A stretch of 64,000 bases of DNA from Nonomuraea angiospora (GTDB taxonomy: Bacteria; Actinomycetota; Actinomycetes; Streptosporangiales; Streptosporangiaceae). Below are positions 2 through 59,342 of this stretch, one piece after another (position 1 is the first letter of the stretch; each line of letters starts with the position of its first letter). A program made the position numbers and the translations under genes. A model generated the notes under the pieces. That model made no database searches. It had not been told where the DNA came from and was given only the letters and a program-made list of their open reading frames with translations. The stretch lies in contig NZ_JADBEK010000001.1 in NCBI RefSeq assembly GCF_014873145.1, positions 4,092,001 through 4,156,000 on the forward strand. The letters run 5' to 3'.

Positions 2-2158
2 GTCAAGCTGAGCAGCACGGGCCTGCGGTCCCGCAAGGATCTGGAAAGCCAGCGCAAGCAGACGGACCGTCTGCTCGCCACCTTCAAGGAGTCGGCGGCC
101 TCCGGCACAGTCGACCTCGCCCTGGACGACGAGGGAGCCAAGCGGCTCGCCGACGTGCTCCAGAAGCTCACCACTCTGAAGCAGACCCGGCAGGCCATCG
201 ACTCGGGCCAGATGAACCGGATCCAGGCGACCGCCACCTATGGCGAGATCATCGACTCCGTCTACAGCCTTTACGGTTCGCTGGCGACTCTCGACGACAA
301 GACCCTCGCCAAGGACATCCGTACGCTCCTCTCCCTGAGCCGGGCGCGCGAGGTGATCACCAGGGAGGACGCGCTCGTCGCCGGCGCACTCGCCGAAGGC
401 CGGCTGACCTCCACGGAACACTCGCAGTTCACGCAGACCGTGGGAGCCTGGCGCGTCCTCGCCGACCAGGCCGCGGCCGAACTCCCCGCCACGGAGAAGG
501 CCGCTTACGACAAGGTGGCCAACGGCCAGTCGTTCACCCGTCTCAGGAGCCTGGAAACCTTGCTGTCTGAGCAGGACCCGAGCACCGAGACCCTGCCGTT
601 CGGCGCCGACCAGTGGAAGACGACCGCCGACCGGGCCTTGAACGACTTCAACAACCTGGTGCTCACCGCGGGCGACCGCCTGGTCGAGCGGGCCACCCCT
701 GTCGCCGTCAACGTGATCATCCGGCTGGTCCTGGCCGGCGGTCTCGGGCTCATCGCGGTCATCGCCTCGGTCATTCTGTCCATCACCACGGCCCGTTCCC
801 TGTTCGCCCAGCTGCAGAAGCTGCGCGACGCCGCGCACGAGCTGTCCGACGACCGGCTGCCCGGCGTCGTCGAGCGCATCGGCCGCGGCGAGGACGTCGA
901 CCTGGCCAAGGAGGTGCCCGCGCTGGACTTCGGCGACGACGAGATCGGGCAGGTGGGCCAGGCGTTCAACACCGTCCAGCACACCGCCGTCAGCGTCGCC
1001 GCCGAGCAGGCCGAGCTGCGCCGCAGCATCCGCGACATCCTGCTGAGCCTGGCCCGCAGGACGCAGGGCCTGGTCCACCGGCAGCTCACCGTGCTCGACG
1101 TCATGGAGCGCCGCGAGACCGACCCCGAGGAGCTGAAGGAGCTCTTCCGGCTCGACCACCTGGCCATCCGCATGCGCCGCAACGCCGAGAACCTGATCGT
1201 CCTGTCCGGCTCTGCCCCCGCCCGAACGTGGCGCCGCTCGGTCCCCATGGTGGACGTCGTCCGCGGCGCGCTGGCCGAGGTCGAGGACTACACCCGCGTC
1301 ACGCTCATGCCCATGGGCGACGTCGTGCTCGTCGGCCGCGCCGTCGGTGACGTCATCCACCTGCTCGCCGAGCTGATCGAGAACGCCGTGTCGTTCTCGC
1401 CCCCTTACACGAACGTGCAGGTCAGCGGCCAGCTCGTGGCCAACGGGTACGTGATCGAGATCGAGGACCGGGGCCTGGGCATGAAGCCCGAGGACCTGGA
1501 CGCCGCGAACGAGCGCATCGCGGACCCGCCCGAGTTCCGCATCACCGGCACCGCCCGGCTGGGCCTGTACGTGGTCAGCCAGCTGGCCAAGCGCCACGAG
1601 ATCCAGGTGGTGCTCAAGGCGTCGCCGTACGGCGGGACGACGGTCGTGGTGCTGCTGCCGCAGGAGCTCGTACAGCTCGATCCCACGCCCGAGCCGCAGG
1701 ACGGCGGGCGGCGCGAGCGGCTGCCGCGCAGGACGACGGCGGTGGCCGCGGCGGCCACCGGGGCGTCCACCGCTTCGCGGGCGGCGGCCACCGGGGAGAA
1801 CGTGCGCGCGCTCAAGCCCACGCGCCCGACCCCCGTCCCGGCCCCGGTCCCCGCGCCGGTCCCCCAGCCTTCCCGCCCGATCACCGCCGTGGAGACACAA
1901 CCCGAAACGCCGGCCGAACCGGAGCAGAAGCCTGTGACCGAGTTCACGTCGAACGGGCTGCCCCTCCGGGTGCCCCAAGCCAACCTGGCGCCAGCGCTGC
2001 GGGACGACACGCCCACGCAGCCCGACTTCGAGGAGGACGATGACGAGCGCTCGCCGGAGGAGATCCGCGCGATGATGGGATCTCTGCAGTCAGGCACCCG
2101 TCTTGGCCGCACCGAAGCCGCCAAGATGATGGATGAGCAGTCGGGAGATGAGGCATGA
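2..2158 (+). CDS. cvnA: CvnA-like sensor histidine kinase, 5' end outside window
   Basis: Conservon membrane sensor that acts with a roadblock protein, a DUF742 protein and a small GTPase. The frame is open from base 2, so the true start lies upstream; 718 residues are visible. The N-terminal half is a helical extracytoplasmic sensor resembling the nitrate/nitrite-sensing type. One membrane helix follows (VNVIIRLVLAGGLGLIAVIA, about residues 236-263), then a HAMP-like segment and a HATPase domain (ELIENAVSFSPP as N box, EDRGLGM as G1, GLYVVSQLA as G2). The H-box region has FRLDHLAIRMRRNAENL, typical of actinobacterial CvnA and unlike classical HisKA domains. The last 150 residues are a proline/alanine-rich, acidic, probably disordered tail. 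It overlaps the next gene by 4 bp (ATGA). Family assignment is firm; the signal sensed is unknown. Confidence 0.9.
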   Translation, partial: VKLSSTGLRSRKDLESQRKQTDRLLATFKESAASGTVDLALDDEGAKRLADVLQKLTTLKQTRQAIDSGQMNRIQATATYGEIIDSVYSLYGSLATLDDKTLAKDIRTLLSLSRAREVITREDALVAGALAEGRLTSTEHSQFTQTVGAWRVLADQAAAELPATEKAAYDKVANGQSFTRLRSLETLLSEQDPSTETLPFGADQWKTTADRALNDFNNLVLTAGDRLVERATPVAVNVIIRLVLAGGLGLIAVIASVILSITTARSLFAQLQKLRDAAHELSDDRLPGVVERIGRGEDVDLAKEVPALDFGDDEIGQVGQAFNTVQHTAVSVAAEQAELRRSIRDILLSLARRTQGLVHRQLTVLDVMERRETDPEELKELFRLDHLAIRMRRNAENLIVLSGSAPARTWRRSVPMVDVVRGALAEVEDYTRVTLMPMGDVVLVGRAVGDVIHLLAELIENAVSFSPPYTNVQVSGQLVANGYVIEIEDRGLGMKPEDLDAANERIADPPEFRITGTARLGLYVVSQLAKRHEIQVVLKASPYGGTTVVVLLPQELVQLDPTPEPQDGGRRERLPRRTTAVAAAATGASTASRAAATGENVRALKPTRPTPVPAPVPAPVPQPSRPITAVETQPETPAEPEQKPVTEFTSNGLPLRVPQANLAPALRDDTPTQPDFEEDDDERSPEEIRAMMGSLQSGTRLGRTEAAKMMDEQSGDEA

Positions 2159-52613: not shown

Positions 52614-52619
52614 TAGCGT
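52614..52619 (+). promoter_or_regulatory. -10 box of the AtuA/carboxylase operon
   Basis: TAGCGT, 7 nt before ATG at 52627, with a weak -35 (TGACTG, 52592-52597). Leaderless. Confidence 0.5.
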
Positions 52620-52626
52620 AGTTGAC

Positions 52627-53262
52627 ATGATCGTCAGGTCTTCGGTGCCGACGTCCAGGGGCAGGCGGACGCGGGCCGCGCTCCTGCAGGCTGGGCGGGA
52701 GGCGTTCGAGGAGCACGGCTACGACGCCGTGCGGATCGACGACGTGTGCGGGCGCGCCCAGGTGTCCCACGGCACGTTCTACACCTACTTCGGCTCCAAG
52801 GAAGCGCTGTTCGGCGAGGTCGCGGCGGCCGTGGTCGGGGAGATGTTCGCGGCCAGCGTCGTCGGCGCGGCGGCCCCGGACGATCCGTACGCCCGGATCG
52901 AGGCGGCCAACCGGCTCTACCTGCGGGCCTGGGCGGCGAACTCGCGGCTGGTGCGGATGGTGGAGCAGGCGGCCACGTCCGAGGAGAGGTTCGGGCGGTT
53001 GCTGCTCGAGCTGCGGGAGGTGTTCGTGCGGCGGGGCGCGGAGGGGCTGAAGCGGCTGCAGGAGCAGGGGCTGGCCGATCCGGAGCTGGATCCGCGGCTG
53101 ACCGCCGTCATGCTGGGCGGGATGGTGGAGCACTTCGCCCACGTGTGGCTGGATCTCGGGGAACGGGCCGACGAGCAGGTGGCGGTCGATCACCTGACGC
53201 GGTTGTGGGCCAGGGCCATCGGGTTGACGGTGACGTCAGGTTCACGGAAGGAGGGTGCGTGA
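52627..53262 (+). CDS. TetR regulator of the acyl-CoA carboxylase operon
   Basis: A 211-residue TetR repressor. HTH: TRAALLQAGREAFEEHGYDAVRIDDVCGRAQVSHGTFYTYFGSKEALFGEV. The ligand domain ends in DEQVAVDHLTRLWARAIGLTV. The frame is open from 52459, but ATG at 52627 gives the family start and a leaderless -10. It heads a five-gene run in which every junction overlaps by 4 bp, so it probably autoregulates the operon with an acyl-CoA as ligand, as for AtuR-type repressors. Confidence 0.9.
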   Translation: MIVRSSVPTSRGRRTRAALLQAGREAFEEHGYDAVRIDDVCGRAQVSHGTFYTYFGSKEALFGEVAAAVVGEMFAASVVGAAAPDDPYARIEAANRLYLRAWAANSRLVRMVEQAATSEERFGRLLLELREVFVRRGAEGLKRLQEQGLADPELDPRLTAVMLGGMVEHFAHVWLDLGERADEQVAVDHLTRLWARAIGLTVTSGSRKEGA

Positions 53263-54848
53263 TCAGGAGCAGGCTCGACACCGAGGGTGACGACTACCGC
53301 GGGCGCCGCGCGGCCATGCTCGCCAAGCTGCGCGAGCTGGACGCCGAGCACGCCAAGGCGGTGGCCGGGGGCGGCGAGAAGTACGTCGAACGGCACCGCA
53401 GGCGCGGCAAGCTCCTGGCCAGGGAGCGGATCGAGCTGCTGGTCGACCCCGACTCGCCCTTCCTGGAGCTGTCGCCGCTGGCCGCGTGGGGCAGCGAGTT
53501 CCCGGTCGGGGCCGGCATGGTGTCGGGGATCGGGGTGATCGAGGGCGTCGAGTGCGTGATCACCGCGAACGACCCCACGGTCCGCGGCGGCGCGTCGAAC
53601 CCGTGGACGCTGAAGAAGTCCCTCCGCGCGGCCGACATCGCGCTGCGCAACAGGCTCCCGTACGTGAACCTGGTCGAGAGCGGCGGCGCGGATCTGCCGA
53701 CGCAGAAGGAGATCTTCATCCCGGGCGGCCAGATATTTCGTGACCTGACACGGTTGTCGGCGACGGGCGTTCCGACCATCGCGTTGGTGTTCGGGAACTC
53801 CACGGCAGGCGGCGCGTACGTACCCGGCATGAGCGACTACGTGGTGATGGTGCGGGAACGAGCGAAAGTGTTCCTGGGCGGCCCGCCCCTCGTGAAGATG
53901 GCCACCGGGGAGGAGTCGGACGACGAGTCCCTGGGCGGGGCCGAGATGCACGCCAGGACCAGCGGCCTCGCCGACTACCTCGCCCAGGACGAGCACGACG
54001 CGCTGCGGATCGGGCGGCGGATCGTCCGTTCCCTCGGCTGGCGCAAACAGGGCATGAGCCCGCAGGCGGCGCGCGAGCCCGGATATCCGGCCGAGGAGCT
54101 GCTGGGGATCGTCCCCGAGGACCTGAAGGTGCCGTTCGACCCCCGCGAGGTGATCGCGCGGGTGGTGGACGGGAGCGAGTTCGAGGAGTTCAAGCCGCTG
54201 TACGGCGCCTCCCTCGTGACCGGCTGGGCGCGCATCCACGGCTACCCGGTGGGCGTGCTGGCCAACGCGCGCGGCGTGCTGTTCAGCGAGGAGTCGCAGA
54301 AGGCCACCCAGTTCATCCAGCTCGCCAACCAGTCGCGCACTCCGCTCCTGTTCCTCCAGAACACGACCGGTTACATGGTCGGCAAGGACTACGAGCAGGG
54401 CGGCATCATCAAGCACGGCGCCATGATGATCAACGCGGTGTCCAACTCGACCGTCCCCCACCTCACCGTCGTCATGGGCGCCTCGTACGGGGCGGGCAAC
54501 TACGGCATGTGCGGGCGCGCGTACGAGCCCCGCTTCCTGTTCAGCTGGCCGAGCGCCAAGTCGGCGGTGATGGGCCCGGCGCAGCTGGCCGGGGTGCTGT
54601 CCATCGTGGGCCGCGCGTCCGCGCAGGCCAAGGGGCAGGTGTACGACGAGGAGGCCGACGCGGCGATGCGCGCGATGGTGGAGGCCCAGATCGAGGCGGA
54701 GTCGCTGCCGTTCTTCCTGTCGGGCCGCCTGTACGACGACGGGGTCATCGACCCGCGTGACACCCGTACCGTCCTGGGCCTGTGCCTGTCGGCCGTCAAC
54801 AGCGCGCCGGTGCCCGAACCGGCGGGATTCGGGGTGTTCCGGCCATGA
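53259..54848 (+). CDS. Acyl-CoA carboxylase beta (carboxyltransferase) subunit
   Basis: A 529-residue carboxyltransferase that adds CO2 from biotin to an acyl-CoA. The crotonase-like halves show NDPTVRGGASNPWTLKKSLRAADIALRNRLPYVNLVESGGADLP, IFIPGGQIFRDLTRLSATGVPTIALVFGNSTAGGAYVPGMSDYVVMV, FLGGPPLVKMATGEESDDESLGGAEMHARTSGLADYLA and TGYMVGKDYEQGGIIKHGAMMINAVSNSTVPHLTVVMGASYGAGNYGM. The FGRIFYNQ segment typical of methylcrotonyl-CoA carboxylase is replaced by IFRDLTRLSA, so the substrate may differ from methylcrotonyl-CoA. GTG follows AAGGAGG and overlaps the tetR stop (GTGA). Confidence 0.88.
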   Translation: MIRSRLDTEGDDYRGRRAAMLAKLRELDAEHAKAVAGGGEKYVERHRRRGKLLARERIELLVDPDSPFLELSPLAAWGSEFPVGAGMVSGIGVIEGVECVITANDPTVRGGASNPWTLKKSLRAADIALRNRLPYVNLVESGGADLPTQKEIFIPGGQIFRDLTRLSATGVPTIALVFGNSTAGGAYVPGMSDYVVMVRERAKVFLGGPPLVKMATGEESDDESLGGAEMHARTSGLADYLAQDEHDALRIGRRIVRSLGWRKQGMSPQAAREPGYPAEELLGIVPEDLKVPFDPREVIARVVDGSEFEEFKPLYGASLVTGWARIHGYPVGVLANARGVLFSEESQKATQFIQLANQSRTPLLFLQNTTGYMVGKDYEQGGIIKHGAMMINAVSNSTVPHLTVVMGASYGAGNYGMCGRAYEPRFLFSWPSAKSAVMGPAQLAGVLSIVGRASAQAKGQVYDEEADAAMRAMVEAQIEAESLPFFLSGRLYDDGVIDPRDTRTVLGLCLSAVNSAPVPEPAGFGVFRP

Positions 54849-56719
54849 TCACCCGCCTGCTCGTCGCGAACCGGGGCGAGATCGCCCGCCGCGTCTTCCG
54901 CACCTGCGCCTCGCTCGGCATCTCGACGGTCGCCGTCTTCTCCGACCCCGACGCGGACGCGCCGCACGTGGCCGAGGCCGACCTGGCCGTACGGCTGCGG
55001 GGCGCCCGCCCGTCCGACACGTACCTGGACATCGGCCGCGTCCTGGACGCCTGCCGCGCGTCCGGCGCGGATGCCGTGCATCCCGGATACGGCTTCCTGT
55101 CCGAGAACGCGGAGTTCGCGCGGGCCGTGCTGGACGCCGGGCTGGTGTGGGTGGGGCCGCCGCCCGAGGCCATCGCGGCCATGGGGTCCAAGGTCGAGGC
55201 GAAGCGGCTGATGGCGGAGGCCGGGGTGCCCGTGCTCCCCTCGCTCGACCCGGAGGCGCCCGGGGAGTTCCCGGTGCTGGTCAAGGCGTCGGCCGGTGGG
55301 GGCGGGCGCGGCATGCGGATCGTCCGCGAGGCCGGGGACCTGGCGCGGGAGGTCGAGTCGGCGCGGCGCGAGTCGGCGGCGGCGTTCGGCGACGGAACCG
55401 TGTTCGTGGAGCCGCTGCTGGAGAACGCCCGGCATGTCGAGGTGCAGGTGCTGGCCGACCGGCACGGCACGGTGTGGACGCTGGGCGAGCGCGAGTGCAG
55501 CGTGCAGCGGCGGCACCAGAAGGTGGTCGAGGAGTGCCCGTCGCCGGGGATCTCGGCCGAGCTGCGGGAGCGGCTGTGCGGGGCGGCGGTCAGGGCCGCG
55601 CGGAAGATCGGCTATGTCGGGGCCGGGACCGTGGAGTTCCTGGTCAAGGGGGATCGGGTGGCGTTCCTGGAGATGAACACCCGGCTCCAGGTCGAGCACC
55701 CGGTCACCGAGCTGGTCTACGGGGTCGATCTGGTGCGGCTGCAGCTCGAGGTGGCCGAGGGGGCCGCCCTGCCGGTGACGCCGCCCGAGCCTGCCGGGCA
55801 TGCCGTGGAGGTGCGGCTTTATGCGGAGGACGGGGACTATCTGCCGCAGAGCGGGGTGTTGCGGCGGTTCGAGGTCTCCGGCGAGGTGCGGGTGGATTCG
55901 GGGGTGGAGTCCGGGTCGGTGATCTCGCCGTACTACGACCCGATGCTGGCGAAGGTGATCGGGTACGGGCGGGTACGGGCGGAGGCGGTGCGGAAGCTGG
56001 TCACGGCGCTCCGGCGGGCGAAGCTCCACGGGGTGACGACAAATCGGGATTTACTGGTAAAAATCCTGACAAATCCGGCTTTTGGGGCGGGCGACACCCA
56101 CACCGGCTTCCTCGCCCCCGACGGCCCTCTTGACCGCAGCTCCCCGGACGAGCCTGGCGAGCTCCCGATGCTGGCCGCCGCCCTCGCCATGGCCGCCGGC
56201 AACCGCCGCCGGGCGACGGTGCTGGCGGGCCTCCCGAGCGGCTGGCGCAACGTGCGCTCCCAGCCCCGCCGGGCCCGCTTCGAGGAGGCCGAGGTCTGCT
56301 ACGACCCGCTCCCCCAGGGCGTCACCGTGATCAGCGCGGAGCCGTACGAGGTGGTCCTGGAACGCGACGGCGTCCGGCACACCTTCGAGGTGGCCCGCTA
56401 CGACGAGGACGGCAAGATCTACGTCGACCACGTCGGCGGGTGCGCCGAGCTGACCCCGCTCCCCCGCCTCCCCGAGCCGGTCGAGCACGTCGCGCCCGGC
56501 TCCCTGCTGGCCCCCATGCCGGGCAGCGTGCTGCGGGTCGAGGTGGAGCCCGGCGACCGGGTGACGAAGGGGCAGCCGGTGCTGGTGCTGGAGGCGATGA
56601 AGATGGAGCATCGGATCGTGGCGCCGTCCGACGGCGTGGTGGCGGACGTACCCGTCGAAAAGGGCCGGCAGGTCGAAGCGGGCGCGGTGCTGGCGATCAT
56701 CCAGGAGGAGACCTCATGA
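54845..56719 (+). CDS. Biotin carboxylase/BCCP subunit of acyl-CoA carboxylase
   Basis: A 624-residue alpha subunit joining biotin carboxylase, a linker and the biotin carrier. RLLVANRGEIARRVFRTCASLGI, HPGYGFLSENAEFARAV, VKASAGGGGRGMRIV (ATP grasp) and FLEMNTRLQVEHPVTELVYGVDLVRLQLEVAEG are canonical. Biotin lysine is in VLEAMKMEHRI (about residue 586). ATG overlaps the beta-subunit stop. It forms an alpha6beta6-type complex with the beta subunit. Confidence 0.92.
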   Translation: MITRLLVANRGEIARRVFRTCASLGISTVAVFSDPDADAPHVAEADLAVRLRGARPSDTYLDIGRVLDACRASGADAVHPGYGFLSENAEFARAVLDAGLVWVGPPPEAIAAMGSKVEAKRLMAEAGVPVLPSLDPEAPGEFPVLVKASAGGGGRGMRIVREAGDLAREVESARRESAAAFGDGTVFVEPLLENARHVEVQVLADRHGTVWTLGERECSVQRRHQKVVEECPSPGISAELRERLCGAAVRAARKIGYVGAGTVEFLVKGDRVAFLEMNTRLQVEHPVTELVYGVDLVRLQLEVAEGAALPVTPPEPAGHAVEVRLYAEDGDYLPQSGVLRRFEVSGEVRVDSGVESGSVISPYYDPMLAKVIGYGRVRAEAVRKLVTALRRAKLHGVTTNRDLLVKILTNPAFGAGDTHTGFLAPDGPLDRSSPDEPGELPMLAAALAMAAGNRRRATVLAGLPSGWRNVRSQPRRARFEEAEVCYDPLPQGVTVISAEPYEVVLERDGVRHTFEVARYDEDGKIYVDHVGGCAELTPLPRLPEPVEHVAPGSLLAPMPGSVLRVEVEPGDRVTKGQPVLVLEAMKMEHRIVAPSDGVVADVPVEKGRQVEAGAVLAIIQEETS

Positions 56720-57477
56720 CGAGCCTGGTGCACGAGGACCTGGCGGCGGGCGTCGCGACCGTCACGCTGGACTCGCCGCCCAACCGCAACGCCCTGTCCA
56801 TACGGCTTCTCGCTGACCTGTCCGACCGGCTCCACCGGGCGCTGGCCGAGCCGGAGGTCAGGGTGATCGTGCTGACCGGCACCGGCAACGTGTTCTGCTC
56901 GGGCGCCGACCTCAAGGAGCAGAAGGCCTCGGGCGCGGCGGTGACGGCGTCGTTCCCCGACGTCCTCAAGTTGATCTGGGAGAGCCCCAAGCCGGTCATC
57001 TGCCGCCTGAACGGCACGGCGCGGGCGGGCGGCCTGGGCCTGGTGGCGGCGTGCGACTTCGCGATCGCGCCGCTGACGGCGTCCTTCGCCTTCTCCGAGG
57101 TACGGCTCGGCGTCGTACCCGCCATGATCTCGGTGCCGGTGCTGCGCCGGGTCGAGCCCCGGGCGGCGGCCGAGTACTTCCTGACCGGCGAGGTGTTCGA
57201 CGCGGCACGGGCGGCGGAGATCGGGCTGCTCACGCGGGCCGTCCCGGAGGACGAGCTGGACGCGACGGTCGCGCACTACGCCGAACTGCTGATCAAGGGC
57301 GGCCCCGAGGCGCTGGCCGTCACGAAGCGGATGGTGCGGGAGGTGCCCGCGCTGTCGTTCGAGGAGGGGCTGCGGCGGATGACCGAGCTGTCGGCCGAGC
57401 GCTTCACCTCGGAGGAGGGGCAGGAGGGCATCGCGGCGTTCAGGGAGAAGCGGCCGCCCAAGTGGGCCGCCCGATGA
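56716..57477 (+). CDS. Enoyl-CoA hydratase/isomerase
   Basis: A 253-residue crotonase. VATVTLDSPPNRNALSIRLLADL, GNVFCSGADLKEQ (oxyanion loop), KPVICRLNGTARAGGLGLVAACDFAIA and SEVRLGVVPAMISVPVLRRVEPRAAAEYFLTGEVFDAARAAEIGL. The classical second glutamate of hydratases is not clear (LGVVPAMIS instead of LGLIPGxGG), so the precise chemistry is open. ATG 56716 overlaps the preceding stop. It would hydrate the unsaturated, carboxylated acyl-CoA, as AtuE does in P. aeruginosa. Confidence 0.85.
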   Translation: MTSLVHEDLAAGVATVTLDSPPNRNALSIRLLADLSDRLHRALAEPEVRVIVLTGTGNVFCSGADLKEQKASGAAVTASFPDVLKLIWESPKPVICRLNGTARAGGLGLVAACDFAIAPLTASFAFSEVRLGVVPAMISVPVLRRVEPRAAAEYFLTGEVFDAARAAEIGLLTRAVPEDELDATVAHYAELLIKGGPEALAVTKRMVREVPALSFEEGLRRMTELSAERFTSEEGQEGIAAFREKRPPKWAAR

Positions 57478-59342
57478 CGCTGCGGATCGCGAACTGCAGC
57501 GGCTTCTACGGCGACCGCCTCTCCGCCGCCAGGGAGATGGTCGAGGGCGGGCCGATCGACGTGCTCACCGGCGACTGGCTGGCCGAGCTGACCATGCTCA
57601 TCCTCGCCGGGAACCGCCTCAAGGGCCGCCCCGGCTACGCGCCGACGTTCCTCCGGCAGTTGGAGGACGTCCTGGGCCCTTGCCTCGATAAATCCATCAA
57701 AATCGTGACTAACGCCGGCGGCCTGGACCCGGCCGGCTGCGCGGAGGCGGTTCACGACCTGGCCACCCGCCTCGGCCTGTCCCCCACGATCGCCCACATC
57801 ACGGGCGACGACCTCACCGGCCGCCCGCTGGACCTGACCAACGCCGACACCGGCGAACCCCTCACCGCGACCCCCCTGACCGCGAACGCCTATCTCGGCG
57901 GCCGCCCCATCGCCACCGCCCTCGCGGCGGGCGCGGACGTGGTGGTGACCGGCCGCGTGACGGACGCCGCCCTGGTGACCGGCCCCGGCATCTGGCGGTA
58001 CGGGTGGGGGCCCGGCGACCTGGACCAGCTCGCGGGCTCGGTGGTCGCGGGACACGTCATCGAGTGCGGCTGCCAGGCGACCGGCGGCAACTACGCGTTC
58101 TTCCAGGACGTACCGGACCTGGCGCACTGCGGCTTCCCCATCGCCGAGCTGAACGCGGACGGCTCCGCCGTGATCACCAAGCACCCCGGCACCGGCGGGC
58201 TGGTCTCGGTCGGCACGGTCACGGCGCAGCTCGTGTACGAGCTCGGGGGCCCGCGCTACCTGGGACCCGACGTGGTGGCCCGCTTCGACACGATCACCCT
58301 CACGGACGACGGCCCCGACCGCGTCCTGATCTCGGGCGTCCGGGGCGAGCCGCCGCCCGGCACCCTCAAGGTGGCCGTCAACTACCTGGCGGGCTACCGC
58401 AACACGATGACCCTGGTGCTGACGGGCCTGGACGTGGAGGCCAAGGCCCGGGCCGCCCAGGACGCCCTCTGGGCCCGCGTGCCCCGTGACTCGTTCGACC
58501 GGGTGGACGTGGAGCTGACGGACACGGGCCTGCTGCGGATCACCGTCATGGACGCCGACGAACGCCGGGCGGGACGCGCGTTCTCCTCCGCCGTGGTGGA
58601 GACGGGGCTCGCCAGCTATCCGGGCTTCTACGCCCTCACCCCACCGGGCAACGCCACGCCGTACGGGGTCTACTGGCCCGTCCTCGTCCCCGCCTCGGAG
58701 GTCCACCCCCGGGTCTTCCTCAACGGCAACGAACTCCCACCCACCGCCCCCGGTACACCGGGCCCACCGCACACGGCGAATGCCACCGCACGGGCTTCCG
58801 GGGCGACGGAGACGGCGAGCACGACGGATGCGGCCGGCCGGAGGGAGACGGCGGGCGCAGCGGAGGCGGCGGAGGCGGCAGGCGACGTAGCCGAAGCCGC
58901 CACCCCGCACCCCGCGCCGGCCCTCCTCTCAGCGCCGGGTCGGCGAGAAGCGGCACGGCGCGACCCGGCACCTGCGAACGGCGACCAAGAGGCGTCGGTG
59001 GTCGAGACTCAGGTGCGGGTGCCGTTGGGGTGGATTGCCGGGGCGCGATCCGGGGACAAGGGCGGGAACGCGAACCTGGGCGTCTGGACCGACACCCAGG
59101 AACGGTACGCCTGGCTGGCCGCCCACCTCACCCCCGACACCCTCAAACGCCTCCTCCCAGCCCTCGCCCCCCACCGCGTCGACCGCCACGAGCTCCCCAA
59201 CCTCAAGGCGCTCAACTTCGTCATCCACGGCCTCCTCGGCAGGGGCGTGGCGGCGAGCCCCAGGATGGACCCGCAGGCGAAGGCCTTGGGCGAGGAGCTG
59301 CGGGCGAAGGAGGTGGACATCCCCCCGCACCTACGAAACTGA
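57474..59342 (+). CDS. atuA: AtuA family protein (DUF1446) with C-terminal AtuA domain
   Basis: A 622-residue protein of the acyclic terpene utilisation AtuA family. The N-terminal domain (DUF1446, about 1-420) has LRIANCSGFYGDRLSAAREMVEGGPIDVLTGDWLAELTMLI, IKIVTNAGGLDPAGCAEAVHDLA and GRVTDAALVTGPGIWRYGW. Residues about 420-505 are an Ala/Thr/Glu-rich low-complexity linker. The C-terminal domain begins VPLGWIAGARSGDKGGNANLGVWT (about 516-). AtuA's reaction is unknown; the operon places it in acyl-CoA degradation. It overlaps the hydratase by 4 bp and converges with the ROK gene with 12 bp of overlap. Confidence 0.85.
   Translation: MTLRIANCSGFYGDRLSAAREMVEGGPIDVLTGDWLAELTMLILAGNRLKGRPGYAPTFLRQLEDVLGPCLDKSIKIVTNAGGLDPAGCAEAVHDLATRLGLSPTIAHITGDDLTGRPLDLTNADTGEPLTATPLTANAYLGGRPIATALAAGADVVVTGRVTDAALVTGPGIWRYGWGPGDLDQLAGSVVAGHVIECGCQATGGNYAFFQDVPDLAHCGFPIAELNADGSAVITKHPGTGGLVSVGTVTAQLVYELGGPRYLGPDVVARFDTITLTDDGPDRVLISGVRGEPPPGTLKVAVNYLAGYRNTMTLVLTGLDVEAKARAAQDALWARVPRDSFDRVDVELTDTGLLRITVMDADERRAGRAFSSAVVETGLASYPGFYALTPPGNATPYGVYWPVLVPASEVHPRVFLNGNELPPTAPGTPGPPHTANATARASGATETASTTDAAGRRETAGAAEAAEAAGDVAEAATPHPAPALLSAPGRREAARRDPAPANGDQEASVVETQVRVPLGWIAGARSGDKGGNANLGVWTDTQERYAWLAAHLTPDTLKRLLPALAPHRVDRHELPNLKALNFVIHGLLGRGVAASPRMDPQAKALGEELRAKEVDIPPHLRN

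Follow-up and report, generated by a model that had tools for sequence, protein, structure and literature searches.

A five-gene operon, tetR-accD-accA-echA-atuA, lies at positions 52627-59342 of a 64,000-nucleotide stretch of the Nonomuraea angiospora genome (contig NZ_JADBEK010000001.1, positions 4,092,001 to 4,156,000; hereafter the window, meaning this whole stretch). It encodes a TetR-family regulator, the beta and alpha subunits of an acyl-CoA carboxylase, a crotonase-fold hydratase and an AtuA-family protein. We consider it likely that this operon is the core of a pathway for removal of beta-methyl branches, in which AtuA would act as an acetate-releasing lyase. An earlier note, made from the sequence alone, had read the genes as an AtuA/gamma-carboxylase module with an open substrate and distinct from the methylcrotonyl-CoA carboxylase (MCC) of leucine degradation, and this core reading is supported here by a beta subunit that did not cluster firmly with MCCs. 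Beside carboxylases of this beta type, AtuA appears to take the place of 3-hydroxy-3-methylglutaryl-CoA (HMG-CoA) lyase (HMGL) or CitE, and the value of the operon lies in the evidence for that replacement. The operon itself would be an ordinary catabolic member of the Atu/AccD2 kind.

The nearest solved relatives of AccD are the beta subunits of MCC and geranyl-CoA carboxylase (GCC). According to the available part of Jurado et al. (PMC4673880), the MCC beta subunit has Phe191 with a three-residue insertion before it, whereas the GCC beta subunit has Gly and lacks the insertion. The substrate-selectivity segment of the window AccD aligns without gaps to that of GCC 5ikl, with Gly156 in place of the MCC Phe191, and alignments with MCCs leave a three-residue gap at the insertion site. 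The MCC segment FPDR(D/E)HFG with Phe191 is missing from the window AccD and present in the genome's own MCC, whose beta subunit carries DEVFPDREHFGRIF. Thus the methylcrotonyl-specific part of the beta subunit is indeed altered, as had been proposed: both the insertion and the Phe are missing, and Gly is found instead. The segment was also missing in all 73 covered loci of our genome_contigs sample, which consists of the best 80 AtuA loci among the matches listed (seven were without coverage). Judged from these alignments, the window beta subunit is not that of an MCC and is GCC-like at the selectivity segment.

In a beta-subunit tree of 58 rows, 44 subunits from AtuA loci formed one group (98/97), which was sister (98/92) to three proteobacterial atu-operon subunits and stood apart from the MCC side, and the genome's own MCC beta fell on the opposite side of the tree from the window AccD. 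The GCC side of this tree was represented by atu-operon homologues from plasmid operons (L188, L189 and L191), a characterised full-length GCC and the mycobacterial AccD2 being left out. The window beta subunit is thus placed beside the proteobacterial group and not inside it, and even the sister relation is undecided by the approximately unbiased (AU) test (p-AU 0.07 for placement on the MCC side). Firm clustering with MCCs was not seen.

The tie between this beta type and AtuA is evident at the level of genomes. Of 148 genomes sampled from the class, 75 carried AtuA; the 14 control genomes had none. The beta type, defined as at least 58% identity to the window AccD, occurred in 68 of the 148 among the matches listed, and AtuA was present in 67 of these (the exception is G049) versus 8 of the other 80. 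All 17 class genomes with this beta type but no listed MCC-type subunit also carried AtuA.

To compare the lyases beside each type, 80 beta-subunit places were chosen by genus and identity, including some extra copies, about 9 kb was fetched on each side, and the genes of each neighbourhood were identified by tblastn comparison with named genes. In 58 of the 80 loci the fetched sequence reached 8.5 kb or more in both directions; contig ends cut the others short. The MCC segment was absent in all 40 close-relative loci and present in all 40 other loci. AtuA stood near the beta subunit in 24 of the 40 loci of this type versus 0 of the 40 MCC-type loci, while HMGL or CitE stood near 0 of 40 versus 25 of 40 (14 HMGL, 11 CitE); neither AtuA nor HMGL/CitE was found in 16 and 15 loci, respectively. 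The count for AtuA is 12/28 versus 0/40 when the 12 loci already known to carry it are set aside. With full-flank loci only, the counts are 19/27 versus 0/31 for AtuA and 0/27 versus 22/31 for HMGL or CitE. Fisher's p values (8e-10 for AtuA, 2e-10 for HMGL/CitE) overstate this swap, as each beta type forms a clade of its own.

AtuA is probably an acetate-releasing lyase. Both its large and its small domain, fused in the window protein, scored over the Pfam cut-offs (Table). Asp14, Glu38, Asn80, Asp112, Arg161, Asp164, His194, Glu197, Cys198, Gln201, Lys236, Tyr255, Glu256, Asp266 and Lys299 are near-invariant in the large domain; 48 positions of this part had at most one deviating row in an alignment of 18 rows (11 fused and 7 split proteins), and a 40-row alignment gave a similar list. 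The motif (R/K)(S/A)GDK was present in all 18 small parts, 11 fused and 7 separate, the split form with a large and a small gene being found at L134, L136, L137, L143, L145, L146 and L147. When a profile of 40 AtuA sequences was searched against the PDB, the sole match up to an E value of 1 was 9erq/9evf (E 7e-6), including a GRxxD motif; the single-sequence search gave an E value of 0.079. The PDB title of these entries is citramalate lyase subunit A (CmlA), and our literature search for CmlA or 9erq found no paper. Cleavage of citramalate yields acetate and pyruvate: a tertiary alcohol releases acetate, much as we propose for AtuA. CmlA is like AtuA in its AtuA-family title, in the GRxxD motif of the profile match and in this chemistry, whereas CmlA acts on a free hydroxy acid and AtuA would act on a CoA ester. 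A short AtuA-like piece was also noticed in a 168-aa frame near the contig end (G000:C1:13069819-13069989; L002, frame 1330-1836, minus strand).

In the pathway that we propose, AccD/AccA would carboxylate the beta-methyl group (gamma-carboxylation) of a 3-methyl-2-enoyl-CoA larger than methylcrotonyl-CoA, probably of isoprenoid or other beta-methyl acyl-CoA origin, to give a 3-carboxymethyl-2-enoyl-CoA. EchA would add water to form a 3-hydroxy-3-carboxymethyl-acyl-CoA, an analogue of HMG-CoA, and AtuA would then cleave this product in a retro-aldol reaction, releasing the carboxymethyl arm in the form of acetate and leaving a 3-oxoacyl-CoA for ordinary thiolysis. AccA has a BT_MCC_alpha domain (PF21139) over the cut-off and a Met-Lys-Met motif, which we take to be the biotinylation site. 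In alignment with solved enoyl-CoA hydratases, EchA has Gly at the position of the first crotonase catalytic Glu and keeps the second (SEVRLG), these two positions being the catalytic ones of crotonases. This Gly was found in all 75 covered loci of the genome_contigs sample (5 of the 80 were without coverage). The solved crotonase 3i47 likewise has no Glu at the first position, and we assume that LiuC and AtuE share the trait.

Several observations weigh against this pathway. By plain score, AccD matches MCC 3u9r (589 bits) better than GCC 5ikl (505 bits). An alternative tree in which the 44 AtuA-locus rows are joined to 7 MCC-side rows was not rejected at the above p-AU, and five AtuA-locus beta rows fell outside the group of 44, namely the three L135 rows, which lie on the MCC side, and L134 and L182, which stand on long branches outside both. 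The similarity of AtuA to CmlA is weak and is one of sequence only. Among the 16 loci of this beta type with no AtuA in the fetched stretch, 8 had full flanks. Neither an acyl-CoA dehydrogenase nor a ligase is encoded in the operon, and a search of the genome with one acyl-CoA dehydrogenase of a Rhodococcus module found no close counterpart (best 31-32% identity). Moreover, a review assigns the lyase step to LiuE in the part available (PMC4097962).

The earlier note had compared the genes with the atu set of Pseudomonas aeruginosa, and geranyl-CoA is a possible substrate. That the operon is the actinobacterial Atu operon proper, for a true geranyl-CoA pathway from citronellol or geraniol, is nevertheless a doubtful alternative in our estimation. 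The comparison stands at the level of domains, by which equivalents of AtuR, AtuC, AtuF, AtuE and AtuA (TetR, beta and alpha subunits, hydratase, AtuA) are all present, and both systems have Gly for the MCC Phe and lack the insertion; the tree also places the beta subunits beside the plasmid atu-type ones, in a position that the AU test leaves undecided. It fails for the hydratase, which scored 169.6 bits with the AtuE equivalog profile for gamma-carboxygeranoyl-CoA hydratase (NF004227), far below the cut-off of 426, and for the genes around it: the Nonomuraea operon differs in gene order and has no short-chain dehydrogenase/reductase, acyl-CoA dehydrogenase or ligase as counterparts of atuB, atuD, atuG and atuH. 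In addition, a pocket with Gly could admit many larger substrates, and the module is spread over many genera of the class.

An unlikely alternative, which accepts the carboxylase but not the lyase, is that AtuA does something else, such as CoA transfer, thioester hydrolysis or a scaffold function, and that an HMG-CoA-lyase-type enzyme encoded elsewhere does the cleavage, as LiuE in Pseudomonas. The assignment of the step to LiuE in the review means that AtuA may have another role; the genome has eight HMGL-family (PF00682) matches, one of them in the MCC locus, and AtuA is missing near 16 of 40 beta subunits of this type. On the other hand, this alternative has to face the complete lack of HMGL/CitE near these 40 subunits versus their presence near 25 of 40 MCCs, the retention of AtuA in nearly all genomes of this beta type among the matches listed and in all those with no listed MCC-type subunit, and the homology of AtuA to a protein titled citramalate lyase. 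The reading of AtuA as the acetate-releasing lyase is preferred.

A biosynthetic module for an unusual branched dicarboxyl-CoA or extender unit seems improbable. Lipid and polyketide synthesis often rely on acyl-CoA carboxylases, but a hydratase with AtuA points to breakdown, as do acyl-CoA dehydrogenases and ligases near many relatives, a Pfam scan of ten flanking reading frames found no synthase (nor an acyl-CoA dehydrogenase or ligase), and deletion of accD2-accA2 in Mycobacterium smegmatis gave no significant lipid change in the part of the report available (PMC4347857).

A second MCC for leucine is hardly credible, although AccD is 50-56% identical to MCC-type beta subunits, because the MCC segment is absent, the genome has a separate MCC, and the same M. 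smegmatis deletion strain grew on isovalerate like the wild type in the available text (PMC4347857). The Nonomuraea module does share with the MCC/Liu leucine operon the gamma-carboxylase lineage, the BT_MCC_alpha domain and a crotonase partner, but MCC carries the FPDRxHFG segment and is often accompanied by HMGL or CitE. In the Nonomuraea module the segment and such a lyase gene are both missing, and AtuA is present. The genome's own MCC beta subunit lies about 37 kb downstream of the operon (C1:4187961-4189505; 55% identical to the window AccD), and an HMGL-family gene at 4185043 adjoins it; since leucine has this separate MCC and HMGL-family gene, the window operon is probably not needed for it. 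We rejected the reading of the operon as a leucine MCC on the segment, on the genome's own MCC and on the missing HMGL/CitE near this beta type.

The accD2-accA2-echA7 operon of mycobacteria, which had been named as a parallel, does exist as Rv0971c-Rv0976c of M. tuberculosis and is up-regulated 20- to 300-fold in hypoxia and stationary phase in the part of the study available (PMC9283954). The M. smegmatis AccD2-AccA2 was described, in the accessible part of that report, as not MCC and open in function (PMC4347857). The mycobacterial operon (echA7-fadE12-accA2-accD2-fadE13-Rv0976c) has the same kind of genes as the Nonomuraea one, and the AccD of an M. chubuense plasmid is 70% identical to that of the window; the Nonomuraea operon is unlike it in having no acyl-CoA dehydrogenases, tetR in first position and 4-nt overlaps. 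Three class loci (L159, L160 and L166) show the mycobacterial gene order beside an AtuA-family gene. This agrees with Rv0976c being AtuA-like, which we presume.

Table. Features of the Nonomuraea angiospora operon (positions in the window)
Feature	Position	Strand	Description and basis
tetR	52627-53262	+	TetR-family regulator, 211 aa; PF00440 (TetR_N) 58.8 bits
accD	53259-54848	+	Carboxyltransferase (beta) subunit, GTG start, 529 aa, GCC-like; PF01039 (Carboxyl_trans) 484.9 bits
accA	54845-56719	+	Biotin carboxylase + BT + biotin carboxyl carrier protein (alpha) subunit, 624 aa; PF00289, PF02786, PF02785, PF21139, PF00364
echA	56716-57477	+	Crotonase-fold hydratase, 253 aa; PF00378 (ECH_1) 176.1 bits
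atuA	57474-59342	+	AtuA-family protein, 622 aa, predicted acetate-releasing lyase; PF07287 500.5 bits (cut-off 22.8), PF23544 (AtuA_ferredoxin) 69.9 bits (cut-off 27)
-10-like element TAGCGT	52614-52619	+	7 nt before tetR start codon; TAnnnT alignment in relatives
Candidate TetR operator TTGACATGATCGTCAG	52622-52637	+	Spans tetR start codon; putative function
Substrate-selectivity segment EIFIPGGQIF (AccD aa 151-160)	53709-53738	+	Alignments; Gly156 corresponds to Gly162 of GCC and Phe191 of MCC; MCC insertion absent
Met-Lys-Met motif of AccA	56597-56605	+	Presumed biotinylation motif; sequence
AtuA large domain (aa 3-414)	57480-58715	+	Pfam; near-invariant residues from the 18-row alignment
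Ala-rich AtuA linker, about 100 residues	58716-59021	+	Pfam boundaries; the two parts are separate genes in some relatives
AtuA small ferredoxin-like domain (aa 517-614), ARSGDKGG motif	59022-59315	+	PF23544

The genome forms a single contig of 13,093,168 bases, and none of the five frames has an internal stop. All four 4-nt overlaps that had been claimed for the operon are present: GTGA at tetR/accD (53259-53262), and ATGA at accD/accA (54845-54848), accA/echA (56716-56719) and echA/atuA (57474-57477). Counting only gene pairs found at most 400 nt apart in the 80 relative loci, a 4-nt overlap occurred in 27/28 tetR-accD, 49/73 accD-accA, 49/67 accA-echA and 40/65 echA-atuA junctions, and all four occurred together in 12 loci. 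Shine-Dalgarno-like sequences precede accD (AAGGAGG) and echA (AGGAGGA); inspection upstream of accA and atuA revealed none, and these two genes are therefore the most plausible candidates for translational coupling by re-initiation. That all five genes make up a single translational unit, as proposed earlier, is conjectural. The same operon is found in N. jabiensis (accD 98% identity), and the nearest AtuA proteins are those of Nonomuraea, with 97% identity to one of N. angiospora. At L173 (6811-8398; genome G016), the accD match is broken into two parts separated by 1 nt, apparently through a frameshift or a sequencing error. The window was said to lack HMG-CoA lyase and acyl-CoA dehydrogenase, and our searches agree: the eight HMGL-family matches of the genome all lie outside C1:4092001-4156000, and the 38 matches to the one Rhodococcus-module acyl-CoA dehydrogenase used as query are all elsewhere.

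With regard to the control region, most relatives have a palindrome TTGACG-TGAT-CGTCAA with 6-bp arms, one arm being imperfect in the window. The pattern TGAC[AG]TGATCGTCA lies over the tetR start codon in all 29 Streptosporangiaceae loci with a tetR match, the window included, and the same 29 loci have TAnnnT 6 or 7 nt ahead of that codon; the palindrome is absent from two further rows of other lineages (L089 and L095). Across the genome the operator pattern has one exact place, in the window, and 48 places at up to two mismatches, many of the others looking like codon runs. Codon usage does not explain the palindrome, because its left arm is non-coding. This arrangement suggests a leaderless tetR mRNA with the repressor bound over its own start codon, and TetR is probably a dedicated autoregulator, which would repress the operon from this site and be released from it by a ligand, possibly an acyl-CoA. 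The palindrome was missing within 900 nt before accD in 42 of 43 loci with no tetR match, a loss that is partly trivial and no independent proof, because the site includes the first tetR codons. In four Nonomuraea loci (L019, L022, L026 and L050) tetR was not recognised, and an apparent remnant of its promoter/start region lies directly before accD.

AtuA also occurs in other contexts, which were inspected as individual cases and not as a census. Other actinobacterial modules often add acyl-CoA dehydrogenases, a TIGR03084 protein and a ligase. On two haloarchaeal plasmids (L137 and L145), a degradative HMG-CoA reductase gene overlaps a split AtuA by 4 nt, possibly forming a unit for mevalonate breakdown. 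Citrate:proton symporters stand beside other plasmid-borne split copies, and symporter-like neighbours were found at four class loci (L167, L179, L180 and L181). An Achromobacter operon has a gene of the 'acetate--CoA ligase family' that overlaps its carboxyltransferase gene, two other AtuA loci have mainly transporters and an aldehyde dehydrogenase, and a Sphingobium copy has no carboxylase within its stretch. A Rhodococcus gordoniae plasmid (L136 5294-9658) chains an AMP-binding ligase, a phosphate acyltransferase and a split AtuA by 4-nt overlaps, and Pta-like matches near AtuA were also seen at L164 and L184. On a Sulfitobacter pontiacus plasmid (L135), three carboxyltransferase genes on the MCC side of the tree surround one AtuA gene, and one of them is without the MCC insertion. 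On a Rhizobium phaseoli plasmid (L141), isovaleryl-CoA dehydrogenase and MCC-like genes precede those for a MaoC dehydratase and a CitE-like CoA ester lyase; crotonase and HMGL are not among the genes listed for this stretch.

Finally, the role of AtuA is disputed in the parts of the literature available, where one paper names it tentatively as an acetate lyase and another gives the step to LiuE, and the mycobacterial AccD2-AccA2 operon is strongly induced in hypoxia with no known substrate in the same available sources. With evenly balanced confidence, we suggest that AtuA proteins may form a lyase superfamily of their own, whose members release acetate from tertiary hydroxy acids with a carboxymethyl arm. 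They would be built of a large part and an (R/K)(S/A)GDK small part, fused in this operon and encoded by two genes elsewhere, and would replace HMG-CoA lyase or CitE for substrates bulkier than, or unlike, the leucine intermediate. These substrates would be CoA esters with the GCC-like carboxylases, HMG-CoA with the haloarchaeal HMG-CoA reductase, and free acids, for example citrate or citramalate, with the citrate:proton symporters. If so, the orphan mycobacterial operon would gain a pathway, and many annotations of 'acyclic terpene utilization' would become 'beta-branch-removing acetate lyase', with the neighbouring genes indicating the substrate. The lyase swap, together with the association with degradative HMG-CoA reductase, makes the functions of AtuA and AccD2-AccA2 directly assayable, and the minimal five-gene operon of Nonomuraea should be a convenient source of all the proteins.

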